Source: Fictibacillus arsenicus (lineage in GTDB: Bacteria; Bacillota; Bacilli; Bacillales; Fictibacillaceae). From it: DNA of 64,000 bases. The position numbers and the translations under genes were made by a program. Shown piece after piece: positions 41,939 to 60,814 of this stretch (the stretch's first letter is position 1; each line of letters opens with the position of its first letter). The DNA lies in the NCBI RefSeq assembly GCF_001642935.1, contig NZ_CP016761.1:1612001-1676000 (forward strand). The letters run 5' to 3'. The notes beneath the pieces are model-generated. The model was not told the origin of the DNA. It made no database searches and worked only from the letters and a program-made list of their open reading frames with translations.

Positions 41939-43042
41939 TTGAAAGAACAAAAAGGTGAAAACTTTACAAAAAAAATAGAATTGGATGAAGTCGCTTTTTC
42001 AGATCTTTACATGATTCATATAGGAGCTTATGACCCTCTAAAGGGTTTTATGGTAGAGAGTGATTATAAAAGCTGCTTAGATAATATGCGTCTAAGTAAT
42101 GGGGAAGTATGGAGTCTTCCAATCGTACTCCCAGCGTCTAGAGAAGAAGTGCAAAATTTGTTAATCGGTGACAAGGTTCAGCTCTCTTTTAATCAATTCA
42201 TCTATGGAGAGATTGAGGTTGCGGATATCTACAAAACGGATCAGGTTGAAGAAGTAAAAAAAGTTTTCTTAACCGATGATCTGAATCATCCAGGAGTCAG
42301 AATGGTGTTTGATCGTAAATCTTACTATGTAGGCGGAAAAATTTTTATGAAACAGAATGTTAGAACCCCATTTCATGAATACCCCCATACTCCAAAAGAA
42401 ATACGTAAGTTTTTTGAAAAAAAAGGCTGGAAAACAATTGTAGGTTTTCAGACTCGTAATCCCATTCATCGTGCACATGAATATCTACAAAAATGTGCAC
42501 TCGAAACCGTTGATGGTCTTTTTATACATCCGCTTGTAGGCAAAACAAAAGCTGATGATATTCCACCTGAAGTAAGAATGAAGAGTTATGAAATTCTAAT
42601 AGATCAGTATTATCCAAAAGACCGTGTGTTACTTGGTGTCTTTCCAGCAAGCATGAGATATGCCGGACCAAGAGAAGCCTTGTTCCATGCAATCGTTAGG
42701 AGGAATTATGGATGTACCCATTTTGTTGTGGGAAGAGATCATGCAGGGGTTGGAAACTTTTATGGAACATATGATGCACAGCGAATCTTTCAAAAATTCA
42801 CTTTAGAAGAATTAGGAATAACTCCCTTATATTTTGAACACAGTTTCTATTGCAAAGAATGTCAGCAAGTAGCCTCTTTAAAGACTTGTCCGCATAATTC
42901 TGATTCTCACATTATTTTTTCTGGTACAAAAGTAAGAGAATTACTTAGGAAAGGAATAATTCCGCCAAAAGAGTTTACTAGGAAAGAAGTTGCTGAAGTA
43001 CTTATTGCCGGCATGAAAAAATACAAGTCAAATGAAAGGTGA
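41939..43042 (+). CDS. sat: ATP sulfurylase (sulfate adenylyltransferase)
   Basis: The 367-residue enzyme makes adenosine 5'-phosphosulfate from ATP and sulfate. Active-site motifs are VGFQTRNPIHRAHEYLQK (about 170) and VVGRDHAGVGNFYG (about 265). The C-terminal metal-type cysteines (FYCKECQQVASLKTCPHN) are those of prokaryotic Sat. A TTG start lies behind ACAGGTGG. It is followed after 3 bp by cysC. No cysH, sulfite reductase or sulfate permease is nearby, and the setting is a glycan locus. This suggests PAPS for sulfation and not assimilation. Confidence 0.93.
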   Translation: MKEQKGENFTKKIELDEVAFSDLYMIHIGAYDPLKGFMVESDYKSCLDNMRLSNGEVWSLPIVLPASREEVQNLLIGDKVQLSFNQFIYGEIEVADIYKTDQVEEVKKVFLTDDLNHPGVRMVFDRKSYYVGGKIFMKQNVRTPFHEYPHTPKEIRKFFEKKGWKTIVGFQTRNPIHRAHEYLQKCALETVDGLFIHPLVGKTKADDIPPEVRMKSYEILIDQYYPKDRVLLGVFPASMRYAGPREALFHAIVRRNYGCTHFVVGRDHAGVGNFYGTYDAQRIFQKFTLEELGITPLYFEHSFYCKECQQVASLKTCPHNSDSHIIFSGTKVRELLRKGIIPPKEFTRKEVAEVLIAGMKKYKSNER

Positions 43043-43045
43043 AAT

Positions 43046-43648
43046 ATGGAGAAAAATATTTTTTGGTATAAAACGAATATTACTAAAGCAGACCGCCAAA
43101 TCAAACATGGTCACAAAAGTGCAGTTTTTTGGTTTACAGGTCTATCCGGATCTGGAAAATCTACATTAGCCAACAGAATAGAACAAGAACTATACCACTT
43201 AAATTATTCTACCTACCTACTTGATGGAGATAACGTACGGCATGGCTTAAATGCAGACCTTAGTTTTACAAATGAAGACCGAAAAGAAAATATAAGAAGG
43301 ATAGGAGAAGTTTCTAAACTTTTTGTAGATGCTGGACTCGTGGTCTTATCTGCATTTGTTTCTCCGTTTGAAGCAGATAGAAAATTTGTTCGAGACCTAT
43401 TTGAGGAATTTGAGTTTTATGAAATATATGTTGAATGTCCAATAGAAGAATGTGAAAAAAGAGACCCAAAAGGATTGTACAAAAAATCTCGCGAAGGAAA
43501 GTTAAATGAATTTACAGGGATTGGGGCCCCATACGAAGTCCCAGAATATCCGGATCTCATAATTAATACCATGGAAAATAATTTAGAGGAATGTACTACT
43601 AAACTCATTAATTTTATACATGAAAAGCTGCTAATAACAAATAAATAA
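43046..43648 (+). CDS. cysC: Adenylylsulfate kinase (APS kinase)
   Basis: The 200-residue kinase turns APS into PAPS, the sulfuryl donor. Walker A WFTGLSGSGKSTLANRI (about 29-45) and YLLDGDNVRHGLNADLSF are diagnostic. Others are NIRRIGEVSKLF, SAFVSPFEADRK and FTGIGAPYEVPE. It forms a two-gene unit with sat and ends at a strong hairpin terminator, into whose downstream side a group II intron has inserted. The PAPS-using sulfotransferase at 60104 is the likely consumer. Confidence 0.94.
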   Translation: MEKNIFWYKTNITKADRQIKHGHKSAVFWFTGLSGSGKSTLANRIEQELYHLNYSTYLLDGDNVRHGLNADLSFTNEDRKENIRRIGEVSKLFVDAGLVVLSAFVSPFEADRKFVRDLFEEFEFYEIYVECPIEECEKRDPKGLYKKSREGKLNEFTGIGAPYEVPEYPDLIINTMENNLEECTTKLINFIHEKLLITNK

Positions 43649-43675
43649 CATGAAAGGGTATCATAACGATGCACG

Positions 43676-43706
43676 AAAGCCGGAACCTATTTTGTTCCGG
43701 CTTTTT
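43676..43706 (+). terminator. Terminator of sat-cysC and intron target
   Basis: AAAGCCGGAAC / GTTCCGGCTTT stem with a 7-nt loop and TTTT. The intron 5' end (GTGTG) begins 5 bases later, the placement typical of class C group II introns. Confidence 0.9.
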
Positions 43707-43710
43707 GAAT

Positions 43711-45580
43711 GTGTGCCCGGCATGGGTACAGGCTATAGGGTGCAAGTCCCGAACTGTGAAGGCAGTAGTAGCAGTAGCTTAAGACAAGGCGATGTGAGGC
43801 GACTCGCATAGCTGAAGGAAGTCGGCGGCAAACTTCCGCCCCAAGGAACACGAACTTCATACGAGGCTAGGTGACATTGGATGAGACTGCATTACAAGTC
43901 AAAGTCCTTACTGCCAAAGGTGTCACAAAGTAAATGAAGTGGGGACATGGAAGGAAAGTCTGTATCCTTACCCGGGGAGAGCCTGCCGGCACGCCATGCA
44001 CTCATGGTAAGCGTCGTTGTGAGATGACGTTGAACGGCAGGAAGTCAGCAGAAGCCATAGTACTTTGCATCTCGCGAAGGAAGGGCTGAACTTGTTAGGA
44101 AGAATGGCACCTGCACGTACATCTCATTTGATGAAACAGAAAAGAAATGCCTACTTGAAGGAGGAGACGGTGAGTCCCGTCGGGGACTTCAAGAGGGTGG
44201 AGAATGAAGATGACGCAAACAGGAAGAACATTCACGCAGGAGGAATATCTAATGATGGAACGAATCGTGTCACGCGAGAACACTTTGCGTGCACTAAAAC
44301 GTGTAGAAAAGAATAAAGGGAGCCACGGAGTCGACCAAATGCCTGTACAAAACCTACGAGCGCATATGGTGGAGAACTGGAACGACCTGAAAAGTTCTCT
44401 TCTGTCAGGAACCTATATCCCTTCTCCCGTACGTCGAGTCGAAATCCCGAAACCAGACGGTGGAGTAAGGAAACTAGGTATCCCGACCGTGACCGATCGT
44501 TTTCATCCAACAAGCGATTACCCAAGCTTTAACTCCGATGTACGACCCGACATTCTCACCGTGCAGCTTCGGATTTCGACCAGGAAAACGTGCACATGAC
44601 GCGGTCAAGCTCGCTCAATCTTATATCCGAGAAGGATATCGTTGGGTTGTAGATATTGACTTAGAAAAGTTCTTCGACAAGGTCAACCATGACCGGCTGA
44701 TGACAACATTGGCGCGAACCATAACAGACGTTTCTCTCATTAAAGTTATCCGAAGGTACTTACAAGCAGGGATTATGGAGAACGGGCTAACGACGATGAA
44801 CGTCGAAGGAACACCTCGAGGTGGTCCCCTGAGTCCTCTTCTCTCAAACATCGTGCTAGACGAATTGGATAAAGAATTGGAACGTAGAGGTCATCGCTTT
44901 GTAAGGTATGCGGATGATTGCAATATCTATGTGAAATCAAGAAGAGCTGGCGAACGGGTTATGAACGCCATAACGTCATTCATCGAAAAGAAACTGAAGC
45001 TAAAAGTTAACCGTACCAAAAGTGCCGTGACCGCCCTTGGAGAAGAAAGTTCCTGGGCTTCAGTTTCACGAACCATAAAGAACCTAAAGTGCGAATATCA
45101 CCTTCCTCTATCAAACGGTTCAAGAAGAAAATTCGAGAACTAACGAGTAGAAGATGCTCGATAACTATGGAGCGTAGAATCAGAGAGCTAAACAAATATC
45201 TGGTGGGCTGGATGAGTTATTACTCTCTAGCCGAAACACGCTCTATAATAGTGAGACTCGAGGCATGGCTAAGTCGAAGACTTCGAATGATACGCTGGAA
45301 AGAATGGAAGAACCCGAGAACTAGGGTAAGAAATCTGAGCAGTTTAGGAGTTCGCAACGATAAAGCTTATGAATGGGGAAACTCGAGGAAGGGTTATTGG
45401 CGTATTGCAAAAAGCCCAATCCTACACAAAACCCTCGGGAAAGCCTATTGGCTCTCCCGAGGGCTAAAGAGTTTAACCGCGAGATACGATTCTCTACGTC
45501 AGACTTAACAGGAACCGCCGTATACGGAACCGTACGTACGGTGGTGTGAGGGGATGTGGAGGCTAGGCGCCTCCCCCTAT
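43711..45580 (+). mobile_element. Group II intron (class C-like) with degenerate IEP
   Basis: The 5' end GTGTGCCCGGCATGGGTACA is a standard group II start. A structured ribozyme part (43711-44200) has the GGGTGCAAGTCCCGAAC and GGCGGCAAACTTCCGCC segments, followed by an open reading frame for an RT/maturase. The 3' end has a domain V-like hairpin (GAACCGCCGTATAC ... GTACGTACGGTGGT) and a domain VI-like hairpin ending CCCCCTAT at 45580. Insertion right behind a terminator hairpin, and an IEP with no endonuclease domain, indicate class C. The 3' end is placed by pattern (AY end) and may be off by a few bases. Confidence 0.9.
44204..45508 (+). pseudogene. Group II intron reverse transcriptase/maturase, two frameshifts
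   Basis: The product is split over three segments. Codons to about 44500 run in one frame (MKMTQTGRTFTQEEY ... VRKLGIPTVTDR). The run TTTT at 44500-44503 has one base too many; in the next frame the protein continues FIQQAITQALTPMYDPTFSP through the catalytic YADD (RYADDCNIY). Near 45027 one base is missing (AVTAL instead of the usual AVDRPW), and the original frame resumes with RKFLGFSFT, the maturase domain and the end ARYDSLRQT. Repaired length is about 434 residues. Unless these are sequencing errors or frameshifting occurs, the intron cannot make its own maturase. Confidence 0.88.
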
Positions 45581-45585
45581 CTCAA

Positions 45586-46659
45586 TTATTTTATTCCTAA
45601 AGATCTGAGCATAGTAATGAAACTTCTCCCATATTGCTCTGGGCTAAAATGACTTTTTACATGTTCAACGCCACAGGAACGAATATATTCTCTTAGTTGC
45701 TGGTTTTTCATTAATGCTGTTCCTTCTTCTACAGCATGCTGTATGTTTCCGATTACGTAATATTTACCCGTTTTATTATGAATGATGGAACTTCTGACCC
45801 CACCAGAATCCGTTGTTAGAATAGGGCATCTGCAACTCAATGCTTCAAGCACAGAATAGGGAGCACCTTCTGATTTGGATGTTAAACAGAAAAAACCTCC
45901 AGAGTCTCCAATAATTGAAAAATACTCTGCCATTTTATGATTTGGGACATTATGAAGGATGAAAAGATTTTTTTGTAAATTCAGCTCGACGATTAGTCGT
46001 TTAAATTCAATACGATCTTTCGCATCAGCAAGTGTAGGGTCTTCAAACATATACAGCTTTATATTAGGATTTACTTGTTGAATAAGTTGATGCCCAATGT
46101 ATAAAAATTCTTTCCAATTTTTATTATCTACAATGCGCCCAATCCATGCGATGATCGGGTGAGGGGATATAGGTAATTTTTTATAATTAAAATATTTTGT
46201 ATCGAAACAATTATTGTAACTGAATTTTGGAATGGTTGGAAATAGCTCATTATATAATTGTTCAATAATCGGAGTTTTAGGGTTTAACAATGCATCAGCA
46301 TGATTTTTAATGGCGGATACACCGTCGGTTAGAAAATTTCTTGCTCTATCTTTTGAACCAAGTCCTTGAATTTCAATAATTAGTCTCCCTTTATAACCTA
46401 ATTTTCTAAACAAAGGTAGAATTGTGTAATCAGAGACAATAATAATTGCACTATATTGCCATTTGTCCAAAATTTGTTTTATCATGTTTGGATCTTTTCC
46501 TATAAAAATATTACCGTTAAACGAGTTTATTTGATCTCTTAGTTTTTGGTAGTAAAGGCAATGGCACTCGATATTGTATTTTTTTAATGCAGCACTTCTC
46601 TGACGGTTTAAGGTCTCTACTCCGCCACTAGGTACATAAAAAACAAATAATATTCTCAT
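45586..46659 (-). CDS. Family 4 glycosyltransferase
   Basis: The 357-residue GT-B enzyme opens ILFVFYVPSGGVETLNRQR (acceptor-domain GG loop). The donor domain starts PIIAWIGRIVDNKNWKEF, and the EX7E-type region is KSEGAPYSVLEALSCRCPIL. The window's last gene (63958) begins with nearly the same sequence, so a paralogue exists there. It is the third gene of a three-gene minus-strand unit. Its stop is 6 bases from the intron 3' end. Ribosome binding site AAGGGAGGAAC. Confidence 0.9.
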   Translation of the reverse strand: MRILFVFYVPSGGVETLNRQRSAALKKYNIECHCLYYQKLRDQINSFNGNIFIGKDPNMIKQILDKWQYSAIIIVSDYTILPLFRKLGYKGRLIIEIQGLGSKDRARNFLTDGVSAIKNHADALLNPKTPIIEQLYNELFPTIPKFSYNNCFDTKYFNYKKLPISPHPIIAWIGRIVDNKNWKEFLYIGHQLIQQVNPNIKLYMFEDPTLADAKDRIEFKRLIVELNLQKNLFILHNVPNHKMAEYFSIIGDSGGFFCLTSKSEGAPYSVLEALSCRCPILTTDSGGVRSSIIHNKTGKYYVIGNIQHAVEEGTALMKNQQLREYIRSCGVEHVKSHFSPEQYGRSFITMLRSLGIK

Positions 46660-46693
46660 TCAGTTCCTCCCTTATCGGAGTTACCTCCAAATT

Positions 46694-47755
46694 TTAAACT
46701 GTCTTCATTTGATTAATGATGTTTGATAAGGAGTGAACATTAGTGAGATTGATATTTTTAGAATAAACAAGCTTTAAAGGAGTCATAGGTTTGTATGTTT
46801 TATCTAAATTACTAAATTCTGCATCAGACACTTCTATCACTGTTATCCTCGGATCTTTTACTCCCGTGTTTTTTAGCTTAGGTTGTATTTGTTTTGTTTT
46901 ATCAATAAAAATTAGTTGGTAATTATGGTATTGCTGTTCTAGAATATTTTCAATCTCTTTAATCGTAACATCATTATTTTGAACAGGAAAAATGATTGTG
47001 GTTTCATAAGCAATTTTTCTTCGTTTACGGGCCATATGTCTTGCTATATTAAACTGATTTCGCCACCAACGATGTTTATCTATATTAAATAAAATCTCTT
47101 TTGACAGGCTTAATCTGGAATTCAATCGATAGCCCATTAGTTCTTCAGGTATAAATTCAATGTTACAAATCTCAGTGAGTCTAAGCCAATAATCATAAGT
47201 TTGAACTGGGTCTAAATAGTAGCCTCCTATTCTTTCAGCAAATGCTTTTTTATACATAAAGGATGTTCCGATAAAACTGCTATCCAGCAGATCATTTATT
47301 ACTTTGTTCTGTTGCCATTTTCGGATATTTAATTGCTGTATGTTGTTATGCATAATTTTTCCTCTGGCGTTTATATGGTGAAAGGAACTATAAACAAGTC
47401 CAACGTCAGGTGGAGCATCTTTAAGTTTTTTTCTTAGTTTTTCAATAAAATGAGGGTAAACGATATTATCACTCGAACCCCATGTTAAAAATTGAACTTC
47501 ATTAAGTTGAGATAAATAATCAAATCCTTTGTTCAAGGCATTTGAGATTCCTTGGTTTACTTTATTGTCAATAATGATAATTCTCGGGTCATTTTTAAAT
47601 TGGTAGATTATATTTCTGGTTAGAGCGTTTGCACCATCGATAACAATGACTAGATAAAAATTTTTATATGTTTGTTGAAGAACAGAAATTATCGATAATC
47701 TTAAATATTTAGGTTCTTGATTATAAACTGGCATTACCATACCAACATCATTCAT
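46694..47755 (-). CDS. Family 2 glycosyltransferase with C-terminal extension
   Basis: The 353-residue protein has a GT-A domain to about residue 220: MVMPVYNQEPKYLRLSI, VIVIDGAN, LTWGSSDN as metal-binding region and VQTYDYWLRLTEI. A further 130 residues include a second GT2-like start (YETTIIFPVQNNDVTIKEIE, YQLIFIDKTKQ) without its catalytic acidic motifs, so it may be a degenerate tandem domain. Ribosome binding site ATGGAGG. It is the middle gene of the unit. Confidence 0.88.
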   Translation of the reverse strand: MNDVGMVMPVYNQEPKYLRLSIISVLQQTYKNFYLVIVIDGANALTRNIIYQFKNDPRIIIIDNKVNQGISNALNKGFDYLSQLNEVQFLTWGSSDNIVYPHFIEKLRKKLKDAPPDVGLVYSSFHHINARGKIMHNNIQQLNIRKWQQNKVINDLLDSSFIGTSFMYKKAFAERIGGYYLDPVQTYDYWLRLTEICNIEFIPEELMGYRLNSRLSLSKEILFNIDKHRWWRNQFNIARHMARKRRKIAYETTIIFPVQNNDVTIKEIENILEQQYHNYQLIFIDKTKQIQPKLKNTGVKDPRITVIEVSDAEFSNLDKTYKPMTPLKLVYSKNINLTNVHSLSNIINQMKTV

Positions 47756-47798
47756 TGTAATACCTCCATTGATCGTGAGAATTTCTTAAAATAGATCA

Positions 47799-48767: not shown

Positions 48768-49049
48768 ACACCTTCACTTCCTTACTATACTTTCTATACC
48801 CATTAAATTAGTTAAATCTAGTTTTATACTATTTTCATTTGAAATTCTGAATGAAAAAATCTGTATAAAAGATTAAATCAGGATATTATCGAGAAAATAT
48901 GACAAATGATAAATATCTGCCTTCTTATAGTATATGTAGTTATACAAGTTTCGGTATGGTTCATACACATAATTTATATAGTAAAATGCAAGTGATTATT
49001 AACTATTAATATTTTAAAAAAAAAACGAACAACTAATTATATCGTCTAT

Positions 49050-49076
49050 ACCAAGATAGAAAACGAACATAGCTTA
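49050..49076 (+). promoter_or_regulatory. Candidate sigma-K promoter of GT2 paralogue B
   Basis: AC at 49050-49051, a 16-bp spacer and CATAGCTTA at 49068-49076, an exact CATAnnnTA match. It lies in a 337-bp AT-rich divergent gap (48768-49104). A second exact CATAATTTA (48968) has no well-placed -35. No other feature is seen in this gap. Confidence 0.5.
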
Positions 49077-49104: not shown

Positions 49105-49830
49105 TTGACAGTTACCGATCCATTAGTAAGCGTTATTATACCTTTTTATAACTGTCGTTATATTGGACAATCTATAGAAAGTGTATTAAAGCAAACCTAC
49201 TCTAATATCGAGCTAATCGTTGTTAATGACGGTTCTACTGAGCACCAACATTTAATTACTCCCTATCTTTCTCGTGTTGTATATATAGAAAAAGCAAACA
49301 AAGGAGCTGCCTCTGCATTAAATGAAGGAATTAAAAAAGCAAAAGGAGAATACCTTGTTTGGTTAAGTTCAGATGATATTATTAACCCTTTTAAGATTGA
49401 ATACCAGTTAAAATTTATGAAATCACGAAATTCTTTTATTTGTTTTACAAATTTTAATAAGGTTGATAAGGATAATCAAATAATTAAGTACAATTCGGGT
49501 ATACACTATAAAAGTAATTTGGAAATTATAATAGCATTCAAGACTTACAACCCAATCAATGGTTGTACGGTCATGATGTCTAAAAAAGTTGTTGATACCA
49601 TTGGTTACTTTAATGAAGCGTTAAGGTATACCCAAGATTATGAATTTTGGATGAGAGTAGCATTTCATTTTCCGATTGATTACTATCATATAACGCTGAC
49701 AAATCAAAGGATTCATGAAGAAATGGGTACGAAACGACACCTTTCTGAAATACTGAATGAATTTAAAATAGTAAATAATAATTATAAAAAAAGTTTAGAA
49801 GAATTAATTAGAAAAATGCAGGGGGCATAA
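49105..49830 (+). CDS. Family 2 glycosyltransferase (paralogue B)
   Basis: The 241-residue GT-A enzyme has VSVIIPFYNCRYIGQSIESV, LIVVNDGST, VWLSSDDIINP, INGCTVMMSKK and RYTQDYEFWMRVAF. It is clearly homologous to the proteins at 37232 and 61634. A TTG start behind AAAGGGAGTGG gives the family start. Monocistronic, ending at a strong bidirectional terminator. Confidence 0.9.
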   Translation: MTVTDPLVSVIIPFYNCRYIGQSIESVLKQTYSNIELIVVNDGSTEHQHLITPYLSRVVYIEKANKGAASALNEGIKKAKGEYLVWLSSDDIINPFKIEYQLKFMKSRNSFICFTNFNKVDKDNQIIKYNSGIHYKSNLEIIIAFKTYNPINGCTVMMSKKVVDTIGYFNEALRYTQDYEFWMRVAFHFPIDYYHITLTNQRIHEEMGTKRHLSEILNEFKIVNNNYKKSLEELIRKMQGA

Positions 49831-49967: not shown

Positions 49968-50888
49968 TTAATTGTTAGATTTCATATAATACTTGTATGT
50001 TTCTTCTAATGCTTCTTGAATGTTCATCTTAGGTTCCCAATTTAGCAAGGTATAAGCTTTTCTATTGTTAAGACAACTGTGTTTGATATCGCCTTTCCTA
50101 GCTTGAACATATATAGTCTCAATTTTTTTGGTATGAATTTGGGAAAAAATTTTTATTAAACTTTTAATTGTCGTTCTTTCTGAAGTACTAACATTGATCG
50201 TTTGTTGATTCCCTTTGTCAATAGCCGCTAAATTTGCTCTAACGATATCTTTTACATAAACAAAATCTCGAGTCTGTTTGCCGTCACCATGAATATTTAA
50301 TGGTAATCCTTTTCTTATTTGTTCTAAGAAGACGGATACAACACCTCCTTCTCCTTTTGGTTTTTGTCTTGGTCCGTATACGTTTCCATAACGAAGTATG
50401 GTGTAAGGCAAATGATAAACCTCATAAAACAGACGGATGTATAATTCTGCAGTTAATTTAGATAATCCGTAATAGGAGGTAGGCACTGACAAGTCGTTTT
50501 CTGAAATCAAGTCTTTTTGTAAATTTCCATAAACTGCAGAGGTAGAGGCAAAGATTATTTTTTTAACTTTTGAATCTCTGCAAGCTTGAAGAATATTTAT
50601 CGTTCCATTAATATTTACATTCGCATCATAGTTAGGTTCTTTGATGGATCGTTCGACATCTGCTTGGGCAGCTAAATGAAACACAATATCAGGTTTTTCA
50701 TGGTATATTATTTTTCTGACATTTAAACTACAAATGTCTTCATGATGAAAAACTGCTCTGGGGTGTAAATTCTGTACAGTTCCAGTTACCAAGTTATCTA
50801 ATACATGAACATCGACTTTATCCGATATAAGTTCTTCTACCAGATGAGAACCTATAAATCCTGCTCCACCTGTTACAAAAATTTTCAT
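49968..50888 (-). CDS. UDP-glucose/UDP-GlcNAc 4-epimerase-type SDR
   Basis: The 306-residue extended SDR has VTGGAGFIGSHLVEELI, HLAAQADVERSIKEP, STSAVYG, SYYGLSKLTAE (YxxxK) and HGDGKQTRDFVYVKDIVRA. This is the GalE/WbpP group. It probably makes UDP-galactose or UDP-GalNAc type donors for the glycosyltransferases around it. Ribosome binding site AGAGAGG. Single gene. Confidence 0.88.
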   Translation of the reverse strand: MKIFVTGGAGFIGSHLVEELISDKVDVHVLDNLVTGTVQNLHPRAVFHHEDICSLNVRKIIYHEKPDIVFHLAAQADVERSIKEPNYDANVNINGTINILQACRDSKVKKIIFASTSAVYGNLQKDLISENDLSVPTSYYGLSKLTAELYIRLFYEVYHLPYTILRYGNVYGPRQKPKGEGGVVSVFLEQIRKGLPLNIHGDGKQTRDFVYVKDIVRANLAAIDKGNQQTINVSTSERTTIKSLIKIFSQIHTKKIETIYVQARKGDIKHSCLNNRKAYTLLNWEPKMNIQEALEETYKYYMKSNN

Positions 50889-51003: not shown

Positions 51004-51153
51004 TTATGTTTTATTTGGTTTCCAAGTTACCTTCCCGCATGATCCGCATCCCTTTTTTGTTGTAGGGTTAATAAGGCTGGGGTCGTTATGAATTCCTTTT
51101 GCTTTATTTGCTTTTATTTCAGTATATAACTTTTGCAATTCATCCTTGTTCAC
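51004..51153 (-). CDS. Small CGSCG-containing protein (49 aa), coupled to the upstream gene
   Basis: A GTG start in a GTGA overlap with the stop of the preceding minus-strand gene has its own binding site (AGAGGAGAG). The frame encodes VNKDELQKLYTEIKANKAKG, then KKGCGSCGKVTWKPNKT. The lone CxxC could bind metal or form a disulfide. Coupling suggests a stoichiometric partner of the 339-residue protein. Unknown family. Confidence 0.65.
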   Translation of the reverse strand: MNKDELQKLYTEIKANKAKGIHNDPSLINPTTKKGCGSCGKVTWKPNKT

Positions 51154-52169
51154 TTTCCATCTCTCCTCTGTCTAAATATCCTGGATGCTTTGTCATTATA
51201 TTCTCGGTTGATGGACGGGGTGTTTTGATTTGACTGAAATGGACGGATGACGGATTTTTGGTTTTTATTTTGGTTTCCGTTAAAAGGCTGAATAGGCTGT
51301 TTCTTTAATGGACTTGATTTAAAAGGATTAATTGGCTGAGCATTTTGAGAAATGAAATCACCTTGTTCAAATGGTTTTGGTATATGATTTGTTATTAATG
51401 ATCCTGAAGCCGAAAACGGCCGGATTGGAGGTACAGTCACTTTTTGATCAGGATGTTTAGAAGGAATAACAGCTTGCTTTGTTTCTTCCTTATTATTCAT
51501 TACCTCTTTATGGGCGGACGGTGCTGTTTGTTCATTATTATTTGATTTGAAACCCTCGCCAAAGGAATTATGGCTTTTTGGAATCTGAACATCTGCAAAA
51601 TTACTGTTCACGTGATTCAGAATTTTATTGGCACATGAGGTAAAGGTTGGTTCTGAGATTGAAGCCAGTGATTCAAACGAAAAGCGTAAGAAGGATTGAA
51701 TGACCAGGTAACTGATCCATTCGGCAACTTGTTTCTCAAATTCAGGCTTAACTGCTAAAAATAACGGTCCGTCTTTTCTCTTTAATGTAATTCTTTTATG
51801 AATGGCAGCTTGAACGGGCAAGCGGAATGAAGTAGCGGGATTTAAGTAATACAGCTGTTTTTCAGGTGTATTTAATGCTAATGGCATGGGGTGACCTTCA
51901 TGAAAATCTACGTAAAACCTTTGGTCACATTTTTTACTATCGTCTGTTGTGATGGCTATGCCAGTATGGTGTAACAGTTGGTCTAATTCTTTTACCTTTT
52001 GTTGTGTTAGTCCTTGAATGCCTATCACAAACTTGGAAAGAGCTCCTGAGATGGTCTCACCATCTGGATTGAGCTGTAAGCCCCAATATGGCAATAGAAG
52101 ACAAAGAGCGTCGTATTCTATAGGTGTTAAGTCACACACTTTATGATTGTTATGCCAAACAGATTTCAT
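51150..52169 (-). CDS. Uncharacterised protein with C-terminal P/V-I-x-P-F repeats
   Basis: The 339-residue protein has a folded N-terminal part of about 185 residues (CDLTPIEYDALCLLLPYWGL, KLYYLNPATSFRLPVQAAI-like stretches). A low-complexity Asn/Gln/Lys/Pro-rich tail follows. Four spaced copies of a short motif, PIRPF, PINPF, PIQPF and VIRPF, lie in the tail. This looks like a spore coat or crust morphogenetic-type protein with docking motifs; B. subtilis cotO sits in the same neighbourhood, but I see no convincing CotO match. Ribosome binding site AAAGGAGGAAC. Translationally coupled to the CGSCG protein. Confidence 0.7.
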   Translation of the reverse strand: MKSVWHNNHKVCDLTPIEYDALCLLLPYWGLQLNPDGETISGALSKFVIGIQGLTQQKVKELDQLLHHTGIAITTDDSKKCDQRFYVDFHEGHPMPLALNTPEKQLYYLNPATSFRLPVQAAIHKRITLKRKDGPLFLAVKPEFEKQVAEWISYLVIQSFLRFSFESLASISEPTFTSCANKILNHVNSNFADVQIPKSHNSFGEGFKSNNNEQTAPSAHKEVMNNKEETKQAVIPSKHPDQKVTVPPIRPFSASGSLITNHIPKPFEQGDFISQNAQPINPFKSSPLKKQPIQPFNGNQNKNQKSVIRPFQSNQNTPSINREYNDKASRIFRQRRDGK

Positions 52170-52291
52170 ATTGTTCCTCCTTTAGCTTTTCTTAACGTGA
52201 AAAATAGGCTTTCGTTCTTGTGTCATTACCTACTCTATTCCCATAGTATGTATGGAATCTTTAGAACATGATGAGGAAAGGAAGGGAAACG

Positions 52292-53413
52292 ATGGGAACA
52301 AATCATAATCACTTGCAAGACGAGTGTATCCGCGTCCAGAAAGTTTACGACTGGGTGACTGCAAGGCTTGATGTAAGAAAAACAGTTTCTTTAACAGATG
52401 AACAACTCACCGCAATAGAAGCAGCACTAGATGATCCTTCACGTCGTCCATTAAGGTTCTTAGCAAAGGTACCTAAAACTTCACCATCGACTGAAAATGC
52501 AGAAGCTGCTGAACTTTATCTTTGCGAACAAGTAGGAGATAAAAGAGATGTAACAGCTTTGCTTAACGGAGGTCAGCATACAGAAGCACAGCTCGTTGAG
52601 CTTTTGTTTACAACAGAAATAAAGGTGCAAGTTGTCGATAGAGAAGGGACAGTTGTGACAGAAATAATGGCAAATGCTTCAGTATTTGAACCTTTTGTCT
52701 TGTGTTATCCAGACGGAACAGAGCTTTATGCTCAAATTTCTAAAATTATTGCTCGTATTCCATCTGGTACTGTTTTGTTAAATAGTCCAGCACCTGCTTC
52801 GTTTGCTTTGGATATTTCATTCTGTGTCGATATCCAAGTAGAGGCGGAAGTGAGGCTTGAGGTTCTTGCGAAATTCTGTGCCCCTCGTGAGAATGATTTA
52901 GCTGCAGCAGAAGGCGAGGGAGAACTATGTCCAGTACAGTCGTATCCACAACGATGTCCTGACATATATCCCAGGCCAGGCTGCATGTGTAGAGCCAGTG
53001 GAGACGCCAGCGGACTAACAGTTAATGGTGTGGAAGGAGCAACCGAAAGTGGCCGTGCAACTGTTTCGATTAACATTTGCCCGAATTATCATATAGCAAA
53101 CAGTTCATTTAAGTTAAACTTTATAGAAACGGGTTCTACAGAAAAACCAAGAGAGTTTAACTTTACAGCCACGGAATTTACTCAAGATTCACTTTGCTGT
53201 ATTGAACACAATGGCGCGCCTAAAATCATCATTTCTGGAAAGGGAACTGTTGATACCACAGGGGAACAACTAGACTTTAATCTGGCTATCGTACAAAATG
53301 GAGAAAGCAATCTTTTTGAAGTCGAATTAATTAATTCCGAAACATTTTCAACAGGAATCGTTTCTGTGGATCAAGGAAGTATCGTTGTAGACAATTGTAT
53401 GCAGCATAATTAA
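52292..53413 (+). CDS. Cysteine-containing putative spore-surface protein
   Basis: The 373-residue protein opens with a conserved-looking block DECIRVQKVYDWVTARLDVR. Beta-rich repeats follow, then a central Cys/Pro cluster (CPVQSYPQRCPDIYPRPGCM) and a C-terminal beta domain with FTQDSLCCIEHN and VDNCMQHN. The CIRVQKVYDWV opening recalls small structural proteins seen in Bacillaceae sporulation loci, but I cannot name the family. The chosen ATG follows GGAAAGGAAGGG; an upstream in-frame ATG pair lacks a site. Likely disulfide-linked or metal-binding surface protein. Confidence 0.7.
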   Translation: MGTNHNHLQDECIRVQKVYDWVTARLDVRKTVSLTDEQLTAIEAALDDPSRRPLRFLAKVPKTSPSTENAEAAELYLCEQVGDKRDVTALLNGGQHTEAQLVELLFTTEIKVQVVDREGTVVTEIMANASVFEPFVLCYPDGTELYAQISKIIARIPSGTVLLNSPAPASFALDISFCVDIQVEAEVRLEVLAKFCAPRENDLAAAEGEGELCPVQSYPQRCPDIYPRPGCMCRASGDASGLTVNGVEGATESGRATVSINICPNYHIANSSFKLNFIETGSTEKPREFNFTATEFTQDSLCCIEHNGAPKIIISGKGTVDTTGEQLDFNLAIVQNGESNLFEVELINSETFSTGIVSVDQGSIVVDNCMQHN

Positions 53414-53450: not shown

Positions 53451-53470
53451 TATGTTGTAAAAAATAGTGA

Positions 53471-53497
53471 ACGAATAGAAACAGGTTACATACAATA
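53471..53497 (+). promoter_or_regulatory. Candidate sigma-K promoter of the coiled-coil protein gene
   Basis: AC at 53471, 16-bp spacer, CATACAATA at 53489-53497, an exact CATAnnnTA match placed 36 bp before the start codon. Confidence 0.55.
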
Positions 53498-53532: not shown

Positions 53533-54411
53533 ATGGGGACTAAAGATAAACTTAGCTATGATCGGCTCATTTCGAGAGTTGAATATTATAAAGAAAAGGC
53601 ACTTGATTTGGAAAAAAAACTAGTATTTGCCGAAGAAACAATTGAAAAGTTAGAAATGAATAATTCTTTACAGGTGATAGAAAAACAAGAAGAAGAAATC
53701 ATCCAGTTACGAAAACAAGTTGAAGAGCTCACAAAAAAACTAAATCGTTTAGATGTTCAAGAAATGGAAAAAAGATTGCAAAGCTATGAAGACTTATTGA
53801 AAACAATCCAAGATGAATTAAACGATAAAGATCAGCAAATTGATCAATACCAGCAGCGAATTAAAAGCATGGAAAAAAGACTTAACATAAATCGTACTTC
53901 AGAACCTGTTATAGAAGGCTCAGAAAGTTCAAGTAATACAAAGGAATCAAGAATCCTTGAAGGAACAAGCTGCATCAGTTATTTTGATTACTCTGTGATT
54001 CTTACTAAAGATAAAACAGGCTTTGTCAGAGGATCATTTTATATAGAAAATACAGGAACTGATGCTCTAGATAATCCATATATCTGTTTTCGTTTTCAAC
54101 CTGCAGAATCAGCTGCTTTAAAAGGAAAAATCGTTTCATTAATTTCAGGACCAACTCAAGATGAACTTACTCAATTCACATGGATGTTTATGGATAATGA
54201 ATGGGCAGAACAAGCAAAAGACAGAGGTGAGATTTGGGTTTGTCCGCTTCGGGAAACAAAACTCAGCAGTGGTGAACGTCTATCTCTCAATGATTTTCAG
54301 ATCCCAATTAAAAGTAAAATAGATAATAATATTATGGTAGAAGCATTTGTTTATTTTCATAAACAAAACTACAACGCAAAAGCAGTTAACCATATAGCAA
54401 TTAATTTTTAG
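53533..54411 (+). CDS. Coiled-coil protein with C-terminal beta domain, unknown
   Basis: Residues about 10-120 of 292 form a heptad-rich, highly charged coiled coil (KEKALDLEKKLVFAEETIEK, QYQQRIKSMEKRL). A Ser-rich linker (about 125-140) and a folded domain follow, with GFVRGSFYIENTGTDALDNP, FTWMFMDNEWAEQAKDRGE and a tail FVYFHKQNY. The second part could be an immunoglobulin-like domain (IENTGTDALDNP type edges). Binding site AAGGGGGAAG. A sigma-K-like promoter suggests mother-cell expression, so a rod-like coat component is possible. Not recognised. Confidence 0.7.
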   Translation: MGTKDKLSYDRLISRVEYYKEKALDLEKKLVFAEETIEKLEMNNSLQVIEKQEEEIIQLRKQVEELTKKLNRLDVQEMEKRLQSYEDLLKTIQDELNDKDQQIDQYQQRIKSMEKRLNINRTSEPVIEGSESSSNTKESRILEGTSCISYFDYSVILTKDKTGFVRGSFYIENTGTDALDNPYICFRFQPAESAALKGKIVSLISGPTQDELTQFTWMFMDNEWAEQAKDRGEIWVCPLRETKLSSGERLSLNDFQIPIKSKIDNNIMVEAFVYFHKQNYNAKAVNHIAINF

Positions 54412-54864: not shown

Positions 54865-54935
54865 ATTAAATGCTTTAAGATAGGAGGAAAAGGGAAAAGA
54901 ATAAAGAAATACATAAAAAAAGGAGATGAAAGCAG

Positions 54936-55166
54936 ATGGGTTATATTTTACCGTATGTCCCAATCCAAAATATCCAATATGCGGTTCGGATGGAAAAGCC
55001 ACAACGAGGTCTTCCGGTCGTCTCTGCTGTTCCTCCAATTCAAAACGAAACGGTGCCTACACCATCCAGCCAGAAGAATCATGATCCTTCAGGAGTAAAA
55101 AAGAGATTTCATCAAGTCTTGAGTGAAATAGAAGGAAAAGGATTGATTATTAACGAAACCATTTAA
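54936..55166 (+). CDS. Small protein (76 aa), MGYILP-type, unknown
   Basis: An ATG behind AAAAGGAGATGAAAGCAG opens a 76-residue frame. It has an aromatic N terminus (MGYILPYVPIQNIQYAVRM), a Pro/Gln middle and a helical end (VKKRFHQVLSEIEGKGLIIN). Starts of the MGYILP kind are seen in small Bacillaceae proteins of unknown role. A terminator overlaps the stop. An overlapping longer frame from 54823 has no binding site and is rejected. Confidence 0.65.
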   Translation: MGYILPYVPIQNIQYAVRMEKPQRGLPVVSAVPPIQNETVPTPSSQKNHDPSGVKKRFHQVLSEIEGKGLIINETI

Positions 55167-55183
55167 TAGGTTTCTTTTTTTTT
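55155..55183 (+). terminator. Terminator after the 76-aa protein gene
   Basis: GAAACC / GGTTTC short stem with an 8-nt loop and a run of nine T. Confidence 0.65.
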
Positions 55184-55249
55184 GGTCTTAATCCGAAAAA
55201 GAGTTACCGAGACAGAAAAAACTATTAACTAACATCTGAGGTGATCCCG

Positions 55250-56834: not shown

Positions 56835-56900
56835 CAACCGTATCTCCTCATAATAAACGTATTACTGTTCAGTTTTGACGAGATAGGATGTTTATAAACT

Positions 56901-56945
56901 AAAAAAGTATTGATTCCGTCACTCGGACGAATTCAATACTTTTTT
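56901..56945 (-). terminator. Terminator of the yjcH-yjcG-yjcF operon
   Basis: On the minus strand AAAGTATTGA / TCAATACTTTTTT stem with inner TTC/GAA pairs. It overlaps the last codons of yjcF. Confidence 0.8.
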
Positions 56946-57359
56946 CATGGCTACATGAGGTATGTTGGCATCTAAAAATGGTTCTGAGGATGTGGTTTGA
57001 TACCCCAGTTTTTTATAAAAGTCTTCTGCCTGAATTTGTGCATATAATATAAGGCTCGGAATAGATAGATCTTTAGCTGTCTGTTCCATAGCTATCATCA
57101 ATTCTTCACCTAATCCTTTTTTTCGATGTGATGAAAGGATGCAAACCCGTTCAACTTTACCTTCACCATTAACTTCGCGGAGTCTGGATGCTCCAACAGG
57201 CTTGCTGTTTTCATCGTACAAAACAAAATGAGTAGCGGAATCTTCGTACTCATCGATCTCTTCGCTTTCGTCAATTTGTTGTTCCTGTACGAATACATCT
57301 CTTCTAACTTCTAATGCATCTCTATATCCTTGTTCATCAGATGTATACTTTTTAATCAA
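56919..57359 (-). CDS. yjcF: GNAT acetyltransferase YjcF
   Basis: The 146-residue GNAT protein matches B. subtilis YjcF: YRDALEVRRDVFVQEQQIDE, SRLREVNGEGKVERVCIL, HRKKGLGEELMIAME (acetyl-CoA loop) and FYKKLGYQTTSSEPFLDANI. Substrate unknown. It has a TTG start 5 bases behind the yjcG stop. Gene order yjcH-yjcG-yjcF on one strand equals B. subtilis. Confidence 0.9.
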   Translation of the reverse strand: MIKKYTSDEQGYRDALEVRRDVFVQEQQIDESEEIDEYEDSATHFVLYDENSKPVGASRLREVNGEGKVERVCILSSHRKKGLGEELMIAMEQTAKDLSIPSLILYAQIQAEDFYKKLGYQTTSSEPFLDANIPHVAMKKVLNSSE

Positions 57360-57364
57360 ACTTA

Positions 57365-57880
57365 TTAGACACCCTTTCCAAGACGAAATGTTTCATATAC
57401 TGTCCAGTATCCATTCTCCAGCTGGTAGAGAAGCTGGAAACGATCGATCTGTTCTTCGTGTTCAATGTCAATCATACGAAGGCGCTCCAAAACATCTGAA
57501 TGCTCTTCGTCTGATAGTTTTTGTCCCAATGTTAAATGGGGAACGAAATTATAAGGCTGCTGGTGATCAAGGGGACCTGAATACAGCTGATCGTGCAGTG
57601 ACTTTAATTCTTCAGCTTCGTTTACTTTTAAGTAGATTACATTATTAACAGGATGGAACGAACCAACTTTGTTAATCTTAATTGAAAATGGATTAATGTT
57701 CTGAGCTACAGATGAGATATAGGAAATCTGATCCTGAAGCTCTTCTTCAGTCGCCTCAAATGGTTCCTTTAACGTGATGTGAGGTGCGATAAGGGCATAG
57801 TGTGGATCGTACCTTTTTCGGTATGAATTTACTTTGTCTTGTAGATTTTTTGATGGAAAAATAGCAATACCATATTTCAT
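57365..57880 (-). CDS. yjcG: 2H phosphoesterase family protein YjcG
   Basis: The 171 residues match B. subtilis YjcG exactly in length. The two HxT motifs of 2'-5' RNA ligase-like enzymes are present: [11 protein letters not shown] and FVPHLTLGQ. The ATG behind GGGAGGAAGAATT gives the family N terminus [14 protein letters not shown]; longer starts are unsupported. RNA or cyclic-phosphate substrate is expected but unproven. Confidence 0.92.
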
Positions 57881-57939
57881 AATTCTTCCTCCCTCATCTT
57901 TTGAAATAGTATACCAAATATTCTTTTTATTTCCCACAG

Positions 57940-58671
57940 TTAGCGATTATTGTAAAGAAAAGTTAATGCGGGGACTAAATCTTTTTGCCAGTTTACCCAA
58001 AGATGATTACCCTGAAACTCTGAGTATTCATAATCCAGAGCAAAATTGTTTAGCAGCTTGTTCATTCTGCGGTTTGGTGCAAGGAAATCTTTTGTTATTC
58101 CTTCAGGATTAGTGAAGCTATGTTCTTCATCGCCAATGGAATGATAGATCGTTAATGTTTGCATTTGTTCGATAGATTCAACGGTTTGCAGCAGTTCCTC
58201 TGGAATATAAGGCGATTGCACAATCACTTTTCCAAAGGTATTCGGATATAAAAGACTAAGTTTCATAGCCACATACCCGCCAAGTGAATCTCCGATTAAT
58301 CCCATGCCTGCGCCTAGCTGTAATGTGTTGAATTTCTCATTTAAATAGGCTGTCAATTCATATGCCATAAACCGTATATAATTCTCGTGTTTTTCACCTG
58401 ATGGATCATATTTTGCTTTTCTGTCTTCAATTCCTTTATGGTTCACCCCAATAATTATACAATCTTCTATTTGGTGTTCTTCCATCAAGCGGTCAGCCGT
58501 TTTTGCCAGCTTTCCTAATTGAAAATAATCCCTGCCATCCTGTGCTATTAATATTGGATATTTTACTAGCGGGGTGTACCGTGATGGAAGATAGATTAGT
58601 AAATCTATTGTTTCATCTAAATATTTGCTCTGAATTTTATCGTCTGTAATGGAACCTTTAAGAATGGCCAT
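57940..58671 (-). CDS. yjcH: Esterase D-like alpha/beta hydrolase YjcH
   Basis: The 243-residue enterochelin-esterase-like protein has [15 protein letters not shown], the nucleophile in [17 protein letters not shown] and [12 protein letters not shown]; the catalytic His is in [11 protein letters not shown] near the C terminus. Matches B. subtilis YjcH in order and size. Ribosome binding site AAAGGAGG. First gene of the operon. Confidence 0.9.
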
Positions 58672-58809
58672 AAACGGACCTCCTTTGCTGACATCATATT
58701 AAGTAAAAGCGTTTTCATTCGGCTCGTATAATTGTAACATATAATGCTATAATGAAAGAATCAATACGAATGACGATTAATAGTGAACATGAAGATGAGG
58801 TGAAGTCTG

Positions 58810-59367
58810 TTGAAAAATAGAGTGCACAGTAGGGAAGTCGAAGCGGCAGCTAGAAGGCTGCTGAATGAAAGAGGCGTCACCATACCTGAGATCGCAGAAA
58901 TCGTTTATGAAATGCAAATTCCATTTTCACCAGGACTGACTAAAGAAGAATGTATCGAGAGCGTTGATGCAGTCTTAATGAAAAGAGAAATTCAACACGC
59001 TATTTTAGTAGGTGTAGAACTCGATATATTGGCTGAGCAAAAAAAACTATCAGAACCTTTGCAGAGTATCGTTGAACAGGATGAAGGATTGTTCGGGGTG
59101 GATGAAACGATTGCCCTCGGTGCTGTATTTGGATACGGAAGCATCGCTGTTACGACTTTTGGCCACTTAGATAAATTTAAGATGGGCATCATACAAAAGC
59201 TTGATACAAAGATAGCAAACGGAAAAGTTCATACTTTCTTAGATGACCTGGTTGCAAGTATTGCTGCCAACGCCTCAAGCCGGCTTGCACACAGACTTCG
59301 CGATAAGCAGGAGCGACTGACAGCTGAAGAAATCGCACAGCATGAAAATGAAGAAAAAATAGGTTAA
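58810..59367 (+). CDS. Phosphatidylglycerophosphatase A-like protein
   Basis: The 185-residue protein has the PgpA signature DETIALGAVFGYGSIAVTTF and DKFKMGIIQKLD; the DDLVASIAANA helix follows. PgpA-type enzymes dephosphorylate phosphatidylglycerophosphate, while this soluble Bacillus group (YutG type) has an uncertain reaction. TTG start behind GATGAGGTGAAG. Strong terminator after. Confidence 0.85.
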   Translation: MKNRVHSREVEAAARRLLNERGVTIPEIAEIVYEMQIPFSPGLTKEECIESVDAVLMKREIQHAILVGVELDILAEQKKLSEPLQSIVEQDEGLFGVDETIALGAVFGYGSIAVTTFGHLDKFKMGIIQKLDTKIANGKVHTFLDDLVASIAANASSRLAHRLRDKQERLTAEEIAQHENEEKIG

Positions 59368-59371
59368 TAGA

Positions 59372-59400
59372 GGAGCCTCCGCGCTGGCGGAGGTTTTTTT
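59372..59400 (+). terminator. Terminator of the PgpA-like gene
   Basis: CCTCCGC / GCGGAGG with a short loop and TTTTTTT. Confidence 0.9.
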
Positions 59401-59440
59401 ATGTTTTGAGAGCAGAGTGTTTGTCGAAAAATCTATAAAT

Positions 59441-59559
59441 AAACTTGAAGGACCATAAAATAATTTGAAGGCTCATAAAATCTGTTGAAGGACCATAAAC
59501 TTTTTTGAAGGATCATAAAAATAAATGAAGGCTCATAAATGGTGTGCAGGCTGATAAAG
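59441..59559. repeat. Six-unit 20-bp tandem array before tRNA-Val
   Basis: TTGAAGG(A/C)(C/T)CATAAA recurs with an exact 20-bp period from 59441 for five units; a sixth, diverged unit (TGCAGGCTGATAAA) is set 19 bp on. Cores alternate GGACC, GGCTC, GGACC, GGATC, GGCTC. About 4-6 bases per unit are variable. No open reading frame or dyad explains it. Confidence 0.88.
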
Positions 59560-59622
59560 TCAATTTTTTATTGACAGACCAGCTGCCCTGTCGTATATTT
59601 TTAATTGTTCCGAAAAAATAAA

Positions 59623-59698
59623 GATCCGATAGCTCAGCTGGGAGAGCGCCACCTTGACAGGGTGGAGGTCGGGGGTTCGAACCCCTCTCGGGTCACCA
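59623..59698 (+). tRNA. tRNA-Val (anticodon GAC)
   Basis: The 76-nt cloverleaf has acceptor GATCCGA pairing with TCGGGTC (one G-T), D-stem GCTC/GAGC and anticodon stem CCACC/GGTGG around loop TTGACAG (anticodon GAC). The T-arm is GGGGG-TTCGAAC-CCCTC, and CCA is encoded. It is a lone tRNA with no rRNA genes. Confidence 0.95.
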
Positions 59699-59810
59699 TA
59701 ACAAAGTATATTAAACTCTTTCTACAAAAGGGTTTTTTTCTTTTTATTTTCAAGAAAGTAGTGAACTCTCTTTATTTCACGATTGAAACTGTTATAGTCT
59801 TTCTTTATTA

Positions 59811-59852
59811 GGTACCTTGACAGGGGTTACAACCACTTTCGTGTCACCATAA
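59811..59852 (+). repeat. Decayed partial copy of the tRNA-Val 3' half
   Basis: ACCTTGACAGG, a gap, then GTGTCACCATAA reproduces the tRNA anticodon loop and 3' end (ACCTTGACAGG and GGGTCACCATAA) about 163 bp downstream, with the T-arm degraded to GGTTACAACC. It cannot fold as a tRNA. Such 3'-end duplications are typical footprints of integrase-type recombination; none is encoded nearby. Confidence 0.65.
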
Positions 59853-59955
59853 ACATATATTTGATTTTATGACTGTAATTCTTGTATCAAGGGTTACAGG
59901 CTTTTTGTTTATTAGGTAATCATTTTATTAATGTATTTCTTTTTTCAAGTTCGTA

Positions 59956-59983
59956 ACGAGCAGGAGATATCTAACATAAAATA
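59956..59983 (+). promoter_or_regulatory. Candidate sigma-K promoter of the sulfotransferase gene
   Basis: AC at 59956-59957, a 17-bp spacer, CATAAAATA at 59975-59983, matching the sigma-K consensus AC-17-CATAnnnTA exactly. The leader would be about 110 nt. The region between the tRNA and this point (59699-59955) holds the tRNA fragment, two TTTATTAGGTA repeats (59807 and 59909) and nothing else recognised. Confidence 0.55.
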
Positions 59984-60103
59984 TTATGTATTAAAAAATT
60001 TATAGTTTTAAGTTTCTCGATTGGACGGAAGGGCTGACGAAAAGGAATTAGTTCTTTAAAAATTTTTATATGAAAGTAATCATTTTTAGGAGGAAGTGGA
60101 GCG

Positions 60104-60814
60104 ATGGCAGAAAAATTACTTATTTTTATGCATATCCCTAAATCAGGGGGGACTACACTTAATTCCATATTCAGAAATTGTTATAAAAATAATGAAATTT
60201 TTGATCATGTTGAACAGGCAGAAATGAGGGAACGATTTAATCGTTCAAGCATTCGGAATCAAAAGGCAATTAAGGCGGTGTCGGGTCACCACTATTATGG
60301 CGTTCATGAAATTTTTTCAAAACCTTTTTCTTACTTTACTATGATGCGTGAACCCGTAAATCGTGTAGTTTCTTTATATTATTTTCTTAAAGACTATCCC
60401 GGTTATTATCAAAATAATATGAGAAACATGTCTTTAGAAGAATATATCGAATGGGACCCACAGACAAAAAACGGACAGTCTATCCAAATCTGTGGTTCAC
60501 AAGGAAATCTAACTCTGGAAAAAGCAAAAGAAAATTTAAAAACTTTCGATGTTGTCGGTTTAACAGAGATGTTTAATGAATCTCTCTATCTTTTTAAAAG
60601 AAAATATGGTTGGAAAAATATAAATTACACAAAGAAAAACATTACTAAGACCCGTCCATCAATTCAGGAAGTTCCTGCACATATTGTTAAAAAGATAGAA
60701 CAGCAAAACCAATTAGATTTAGAAGTATACAGGCTTGTGAAATTAAACATTATGAATCAACTTAATTTACTTTCGCCTGCTGAATGGGAAGAAATCAAAA
60801 AAATAAATGCATGA
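60104..60814 (+). CDS. PAPS-dependent carbohydrate sulfotransferase (Sulfotransfer_2 type)
   Basis: The 236-residue protein has the 5'-phosphosulfate loop MHIPKSGGTTLNSIF (Lys13-Ser14) near the N terminus. The 3'-phosphate motif is MMREPVNRVVSLYYF (about residues 79-93). These are the two PAPS-binding elements of heparan-sulfate-type sulfotransferases; bacterial members decorate surface glycans. No membrane segment is seen. Ribosome binding site TTAGGAGGAAG. With sat and cysC in the same glycan region it completes a sulfate-to-glycan route. Acceptor unknown. Confidence 0.9.
   Translation: MAEKLLIFMHIPKSGGTTLNSIFRNCYKNNEIFDHVEQAEMRERFNRSSIRNQKAIKAVSGHHYYGVHEIFSKPFSYFTMMREPVNRVVSLYYFLKDYPGYYQNNMRNMSLEEYIEWDPQTKNGQSIQICGSQGNLTLEKAKENLKTFDVVGLTEMFNESLYLFKRKYGWKNINYTKKNITKTRPSIQEVPAHIVKKIEQQNQLDLEVYRLVKLNIMNQLNLLSPAEWEEIKKINA

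Follow-up and report, generated by a model that had tools for sequence, protein, structure and literature searches.

In rhizobia, NodP-NodQ and NodH combine a dedicated synthesis of 3'-phosphoadenosine 5'-phosphosulfate (PAPS) with a sulfotransferase for the sulfation of Nod factors. In the crust or exosporium glycan loci of Bacillus subtilis and the B. cereus group, which are next to fabI, spore-coat genes are accompanied by genes for glycosyltransferases and sugar-nucleotide enzymes; we know of no sulfate-activation or sulfotransferase genes in these loci. The locus described here lies in a stretch of 64,000 nucleotides from Fictibacillus arsenicus (the window; positions 1,612,001 to 1,676,000 of contig NZ_CP016761.1, numbered below from its first letter). 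It includes sat and cysC, the genes for ATP sulfurylase and adenosine 5'-phosphosulfate (APS) kinase, and a sulfotransferase gene. Like the B. subtilis and B. cereus group loci, the window has its glycan genes beside spore-coat genes and next to fabI. The likeness to NodPQ/NodH is one of logic only, in that a second sulfate-activation set, apart from assimilation, would feed a sulfotransferase acting on a secreted amino-sugar oligomer. In contrast to the rhizobial system, Sat and CysC are monofunctional here, the sulfotransferases belong to other families and the proposed product is a spore-surface glycan. The gene nodQ was among the plasmid matches to CysC. PAPS synthesis dedicated to the sulfation of a bacterial glycan is known in kind, and the new part would be the spore surface.

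Gene content, motifs and comparison with related genomes make it likely that PAPS synthesis in the mother cell during sporulation feeds the sulfation of a coat or exosporium glycan. Among the available open-licence PMC texts, no description of a sulfated spore-surface glycan of Bacillaceae was found.

The sat-cysC pair and the sulfotransferase

The sat gene (41939..43042, forward strand) starts with TTG and encodes an ATP sulfurylase of the glycan-locus type with 367 amino acids. The protein matched PF01747 (3.9e-100) and PF14306 (3e-41) and scored over the NCBIfam cut-offs for sulfate adenylyltransferase. It has an ATP-sulfurylase and a PUA-like domain, the match to the latter leaving the first 25 of 159 profile positions uncovered. 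The motifs TRNPIHRAHE, GRDHAG and MRYAGP were intact; we take (T/Q)xNPxHxxHE and GRDHAG to be the catalytic motifs of Sat. After a gap of 3 bp follows cysC (43046..43648, forward strand), encoding an APS kinase (PF01583, 9.8e-65, 217.7 bits with a cut-off of 21.1; NCBIfam apsK, 263.2 with a cut-off of 138.7). Judged from these sequences, Sat and CysC together should be able to turn sulfate into PAPS. The pair closes a run of sugar-nucleotide genes (38087-41879), all genes of which are read in the same direction as the pair, overlapping or with gaps of about 60 bp. The profile matches, the short gap and this run bore out the earlier note, which had described sat and cysC as a two-gene unit amid sugar-nucleotide and glycosyltransferase genes. 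It had also reported the window to be free of PAPS reductase, sulfite reductase and sulfate permease. The profile scans agreed: a CysH profile search of the genome placed no cysH in the 64-kb window, and the Pfam scan of the gene-like open reading frames (ORFs) of the window recognised neither sulfite reductase nor sulfate permease.

A PAPS-dependent sulfotransferase (Sulfotransfer_2) is predicted at 60104..60814 on the forward strand, with matches to PF03567 (5.8e-11, 43.4 bits with a cut-off of 22) and PF06990 (6.5e-7). Both PAPS motifs that had been claimed for it, FMHIPKSGGTT and REPVNRVVS, were read. The nearest solved relatives are the heparan-sulfate 6-O- (E 8e-9) and 2-O-sulfotransferases (E 0.0081), with which it shares the PAPS motifs and a detectable similarity; unlike these the window enzyme is bacterial and has 236 amino acids. 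For a motif survey 34 sulfotransferase rows were extracted, one wrong protein was dropped and 33 were scored. The 5' PAPS motif was present in all 33, and the pattern for the second motif matched 13 of them.

Separate assimilation genes and Sat phylogeny

The chromosome is a single contig of 4,055,461 bases, and a cysH-linked sat/cysC set was looked for elsewhere on it, since otherwise the pair of the window might serve assimilation. Such a set was found 560 kb away, where a second Sat (59% to that of the window) and CysC (57%) are encoded directly behind a PAPS reductase gene. The CysH search gave a single match in this genome (C1:2214896), to which PF01507 added one weak match (C1:511699). 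The assimilatory cysH-sat-cysC operon has the same two enzymes, whereas the pair of the window has no linked cysH, lies in a glycan locus and encodes a Sat of a separate clade. The separate cysH operon, and five genomes of the family that keep the pair with no CysH match, were the grounds for rejecting the pair as spare assimilation genes.

A tree of 60 Sat proteins placed the cysH-linked Sat of the family in one clade of 29 rows (support 97/89). In five of these rows the short locus used showed no cysH; the CysH search locates the gene at a distance of about 1.2 kb. All 21 Sat of the glycan loci fell outside this clade, in three groups, and had intact motifs. Their single origin was neither shown nor rejected (approximately unbiased (AU) test, p 0.343, with L107 and L108 left out). 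Two proteins labelled as glycan-type in the tree (G003 1444420 and G007 294780) are actually cysH-linked and were counted as such for the motifs and the AU test; the two species have a second cysH-sat-cysC assimilation operon (G003:C1:1444420-1446389 and G007:C11:293950-296592). A wider scan of genome contigs gave 12 Sat loci with 52-59% identity, 10 of which entered the tree, 8 of these with cysH in the stretch.

Occurrence in the family

The family sample comprised 34 genomes from four genera, and the genome-wide sulfotransferase counts cover the Pfam families PF00685 and PF03567. In line with the co-occurrence that had been expected, sat and cysC were present in a coat/glycan locus in 22 of the 34 genomes. 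Both genes were intact in 21, and G003 has cysC with a broken sat. Sulfotransferases were found in 24 genomes (PF00685 in 21, PF03567 in 12): in all 22 with the locus pair, versus 2 of the 12 others (G018 and G024). The ten remaining genomes gave no match to either family. G018 has a cysC in its glycan locus together with a fusion of a glycosyltransferase family 2 (GT2) domain to Sulfotransfer_1 (L179:11298-12767; residues 5-129 and 246-478), which is 55% identical to the GT2 protein at 37232 of the window. In G024 the sulfotransferase lies about 20 kb from the coat gene, near the sugar set. Within about 20 kb, the sugar set was not seen in G011, G016, G017, G019-G023 and G031; of these, G011 and G016 keep the coat genes with the sugar set missing, and G017 keeps them beside remnants of it, within the 20 kb fetched. 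G031 has a lone cysC in its coat locus (L178:4513-5115), with no sat and no sulfotransferase match; this cysC is probably a relic.

In 15 of the 22 genomes the locus sat has a sulfotransferase gene at a distance of up to about 17 kb; these genes occupy several slots and belong to two Pfam families. The 15 are the window genome (G000), G002, G003 with its broken sat, G006 (a broken sulfotransferase copy, with others elsewhere), G007, G012, G013, G014 and seven genomes of the sister genus. G002, G007, G012 and G014 have it between an rluD-like gene and prpE, and in G003 it adjoins sat, a slot where G012 has a remnant below the cut-off. In the sister genus and in the broken G006 copy it precedes wecB, except in G027, where it stands among glycosyltransferases nearer to sat; G013 has three copies near the locus sat. 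Among the matches listed, every cysH-linked sat was more than 100 kb from any sulfotransferase gene of its contig. Seven genomes, G010, G005, G015, G004, G012, G009 and G008 (L085-L090 and L092), have a PF00685 sulfotransferase whose conserved surroundings contain no recognised glycan genes.

The CysH search gave no match in 7 of the 34 genomes. Five of these (G001, G006, G026, G028 and G032) have exactly one sat, of the glycan-locus kind, and sulfotransferases, while G021 and G031 have neither a sat nor a sulfotransferase match. Ten genomes were also searched with PF01507. This profile matched 14 of 14 controls and nothing in G021, G026, G028 and G032. In G001 it gave a single weak match, of a type that likewise occurred in G000, G002, G006 and G013. 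G006 had an additional match in a 519-amino-acid ORF unlike CysH in size, and G031 had two matches.

All seven loci of the sister genus encode a protein of 587-593 amino acids between sat and cysC (e.g., L141:15019-16782). In G028 this protein scored over the cut-offs for CitMHS, TrkA_C and Na_sulph_symp and below the cut-off of the DASS model. It is a predicted anion permease and possibly a sulfate transporter; if it carries sulfate, uptake, activation and transfer would all be encoded in one locus.

Related genes on Priestia plasmids

In the plasmid collection the closest relatives of the 60104 sulfotransferase are on Priestia plasmids, including pBM600 of the laboratory strain P. megaterium QM B1551, whose sulfotransferase gene is BMQ_RS26695. 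Among the matching plasmid records, 28 of 33 with relatives of this enzyme (up to 61%) were from Priestia. Strains without pBM600 lose the exosporium, and a role of pBM500 was left possible (PMC4674009); the main text of that paper has no word starting with "sulf". One plasmid of P. megaterium Y18-01 carries wecB (69% to that of the window), the dehydratase, the reductase, the epimerase and a GT2-GT4 fusion (61% to the glycosyltransferase family 4 (GT4) protein at 62666), as well as a 60933-like protein, a PF00685 sulfotransferase, cysC, spore coat proteins and exosporium protein D. A second Priestia plasmid has cysC, two sulfotransferases and pieces of sat, and on a third cysC lies beside the four sugar genes. 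The Priestia exosporium plasmids (pBM600, NZ_CP137801.1, NZ_CP059460.1 and NZ_CP085448.1) thus resemble the window in having the closest sulfotransferase relatives and, in one plasmid, shared sugar, cysC and coat genes. They differ in that the set is plasmid-borne and that sat was either missing or broken in the stretches seen. An ordinary cysH-sat-cysC operon contains the cysC found on a Cytobacillus spongiae plasmid and that of P. megaterium CACC119.

Spore-surface assignment, proposed route and alternatives

In the locus, genes for glycosyltransferases and sugar-nucleotide enzymes stand beside bona fide spore-coat genes. One of these, at 52268..53413 (forward strand), encodes a BMQ_0737-family morphogenetic spore coat protein (NF052457, 129.2 bits with a cut-off of 71). 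The earlier assignment of the locus to the spore surface is supported by this curated coat protein and by SigK-like sites in part of the relatives. These sites were searched with what we take to be the SigK consensus. Upstream of sat they were surveyed in 13 genomes of the genus and found in 10, several of which are closely related, with a shuffle expectation of 0.43. G003 was left out of this survey and has a site before its broken sat. The coat gene at 53533 was preceded by a site in 12 of 13 genomes. No SigK-like site was found before the housekeeping genes fabI, prpE, ftsW, nhaP, pgpA, nadK and 27613 in 12 or 13 genomes each.

The activity, acceptor, timing and location proposed here are what we infer from the genes, their motifs and linkage, the fusion and the patterns of loss. 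Sat and CysC would supply PAPS apart from cysteine synthesis, at a late stage of sporulation and in the mother cell. The locus glycosyltransferases would build a glycan from a UDP-6-deoxy-L-aminosugar, and the 60104 sulfotransferase, or others in the relatives, would move sulfate to hydroxyls of this glycan. The sulfated product may be attached to coat or exosporium proteins, giving a strongly acidic spore surface. The profiled ORFs of the locus included no recognisable flippase, polymerase or exporter. This agrees with a glycan made in the cytoplasm of the mother cell, the compartment in which the spore surface is put together.

Several results weigh against this proposal. The earlier note had claimed a complete sulfate-to-glycan route in the locus. 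Sat, cysC, the sulfotransferase and the glycosyltransferase genes are indeed all present, but the sulfotransferase gene stands outside the sat-cysC operon, 17 kb downstream and past coat genes, six core genes and a tRNA-Val gene. In 7 of the 22 genomes with the pair (G001, G004, G005, G008, G009, G010 and G015) the sulfotransferases found are at other places on the chromosome, and in G025 the sugar set is present with no sulfotransferase match. The distribution counts are not independent: on the coat-protein tree they reduce to 3 independent pairs (median p 0.25), too few for significance. In these pairs the sulfotransferase goes with the locus sat in 2.8 of 3 on average and never in the opposite way; between cysH and the locus sat there was no such link. 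No SigK-like site precedes sat in the window, G006 and G013, nor in G001 and seven sister-genus genomes, and none was found upstream of the first glycosyltransferase gene, 51150 and 52268 in 13 genomes each. The whole window has 10 such sites versus 18.2 in shuffled sequence. Judged by eye, 6 of the 10 lie at most 200 bp before a glycan or coat gene in the same direction, a weak signal; one of these six is the site at 59955..59983 (forward strand), 121 bp before the sulfotransferase gene and itself weak, as the window total is under the shuffle expectation. On the Priestia plasmids, the Y18-01 stretch has no sat and the second plasmid has it in two pieces, so that sat was absent or broken in the stretches seen.

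A vegetative capsule or exopolysaccharide as the place of the glycan and its sulfation, with the coat genes as accidental neighbours, is unlikely. Sugar-nucleotide genes of these types also serve capsules (CapD, 6bwc, and CapE, 3vvb, are solved relatives of the dehydratase at 39171), and the window sat is without a SigK-like site of its own. However, coat genes flank every family locus examined, SigK-like sites precede sat in 10 of the 13 genomes surveyed in the genus, and on the Y18-01 plasmid the same set is accompanied by genes for spore coat proteins and exosporium protein D; the lack of a recognised flippase, polymerase or exporter points the same way. A substrate other than a glycan, such as tyrosine or another residue of the coat proteins or a small molecule, is quite improbable. 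The nearest solved relatives of the window enzyme are heparan sulfotransferases, a sulfotransferase is fused to a GT2 in G018, and others are placed among glycosyltransferases. On the other side, sulfotransferase fold families include enzymes for several acceptor types, and the acceptor is not readable from sequence. Hardly any weight can be given to an extra assimilation set that provides cysteine for cysteine-rich coat proteins in sporulation: small cysteine-rich proteins are encoded nearby (35369 and 54475), and a Cytobacillus and a Priestia plasmid each have a cysH-sat-cysC operon of the ordinary kind, but the glycan loci examined had no recognisable cysH, the pair is kept in five genomes in which cysH was not found, and the presence of the pair tracks the sulfotransferase and not cysH.

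Sulfation of a spore-surface glycan thus remains the preferred reading. We lean slightly towards a wider version of it, in which a sporulation-timed sulfation island (the anion permease, sat, cysC, sulfotransferases of two Pfam families and the L-aminosugar set) was assembled more than once in several genera of spore formers, in some cases on plasmids. It would make a heparin-like, highly acidic spore glycan and be kept where sulfate assimilation was lost. Spore surface glycans govern adhesion, wettability and recognition. If the proposal is true, a sulfated glycan would give the spore surface additional negative charge, strong and fixed, together with a new modification, making it a surface of a new kind. 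It would also suggest a role for the sulfotransferases on the Priestia exosporium plasmids and provide a bacterial source of sulfated amino-sugar glycans.

Neighbouring genes

The co-directional run that ends in sat-cysC begins with two glycosyltransferase genes on the forward strand. The first (36299..37216; Glyco_trans_1_2, PF13524, 9.8e-17) has the same place in relatives, and the second (37232..37939; GT2, PF00535, 5.2e-32) is the one whose G018 relative is fused to a sulfotransferase. Four sugar-nucleotide genes follow on the same strand. A UDP-GlcNAc 2-epimerase of the WecB type (38087..39178; PF02350) scored 289.7 bits versus the wecB cut-off of 210.15. The UDP-GlcNAc 4,6-dehydratase type enzyme (39171..40157; PF02719, 4e-100) stayed under the PseB and FnlA cut-offs, and the RmlD-like reductase (40154..40978; PF04321, 1.3e-22) under that of rmlD. 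The fourth gene encodes an NAD-dependent epimerase/dehydratase (40971..41879; PF01370, 7.3e-41). Going by the FnlABC and WbvBRD pathways, this set should presumably yield a UDP-2-acetamido-2,6-dideoxy-L-sugar.

A group II intron (43793-45586) lies directly after cysC, with its maturase ORF in pieces (44204, 44538 and 45089). The pair as a decaying passenger of this intron was rejected because it keeps its place in relatives and because all 21 glycan-locus Sat proteins have intact motifs. A DNA match of the window to the Cytobacillus spongiae plasmid covers the intron stretch only. Beyond the intron, the reverse strand encodes a GT4 glycosyltransferase that is kept in relatives (45586..46659; PF00534, 4.5e-22), a GT2 glycosyltransferase (46694..47755; PF00535, 3.8e-22) and a sugar-nucleotide epimerase/dehydratase (49968..50888; PF16363 and PF01370). 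Another GT2 gene is on the forward strand (49105..49830; PF00535, 1.7e-29), with a SigK-like site at 49049-49076.

The coat cluster further contains, on the reverse strand, a gene at 51150..52169 with no profile match, which adjoins sat-cysC or 52268 in relatives; the label CotO is a tentative one, given to it from its position. A coiled-coil protein is encoded on the forward strand at 53533..54411, with a SigK-like site at 53470-53497, and is kept beside 52268 in relatives.

The gene adjoining the sulfotransferase had been called ExsC-like. A small ORF does adjoin it (60933..61346, forward strand), but the label has no Pfam or NCBIfam match behind it. Similar ORFs were found in G006, beside a PF03567 sulfotransferase, on a Priestia plasmid and in the glycan loci of G018 and G024. 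Two more glycosyltransferases follow on the forward strand, a GT2 (61634..62353; PF00535, 6.6e-30) and a GT4 (62666..63760; PF00534, 5.3e-15), with another just past the end of the window. Relatives of the 62666 GT4 directly precede sat in G001, G006 and 6 of the 7 sister-genus loci, which suggests that this right-hand cluster may be a displaced part of the same system. At the other end of the window, a T-box leader (6194-6442, reverse strand) lies upstream of a gene for a class I tRNA synthetase of the W/Y type (5147-6136).

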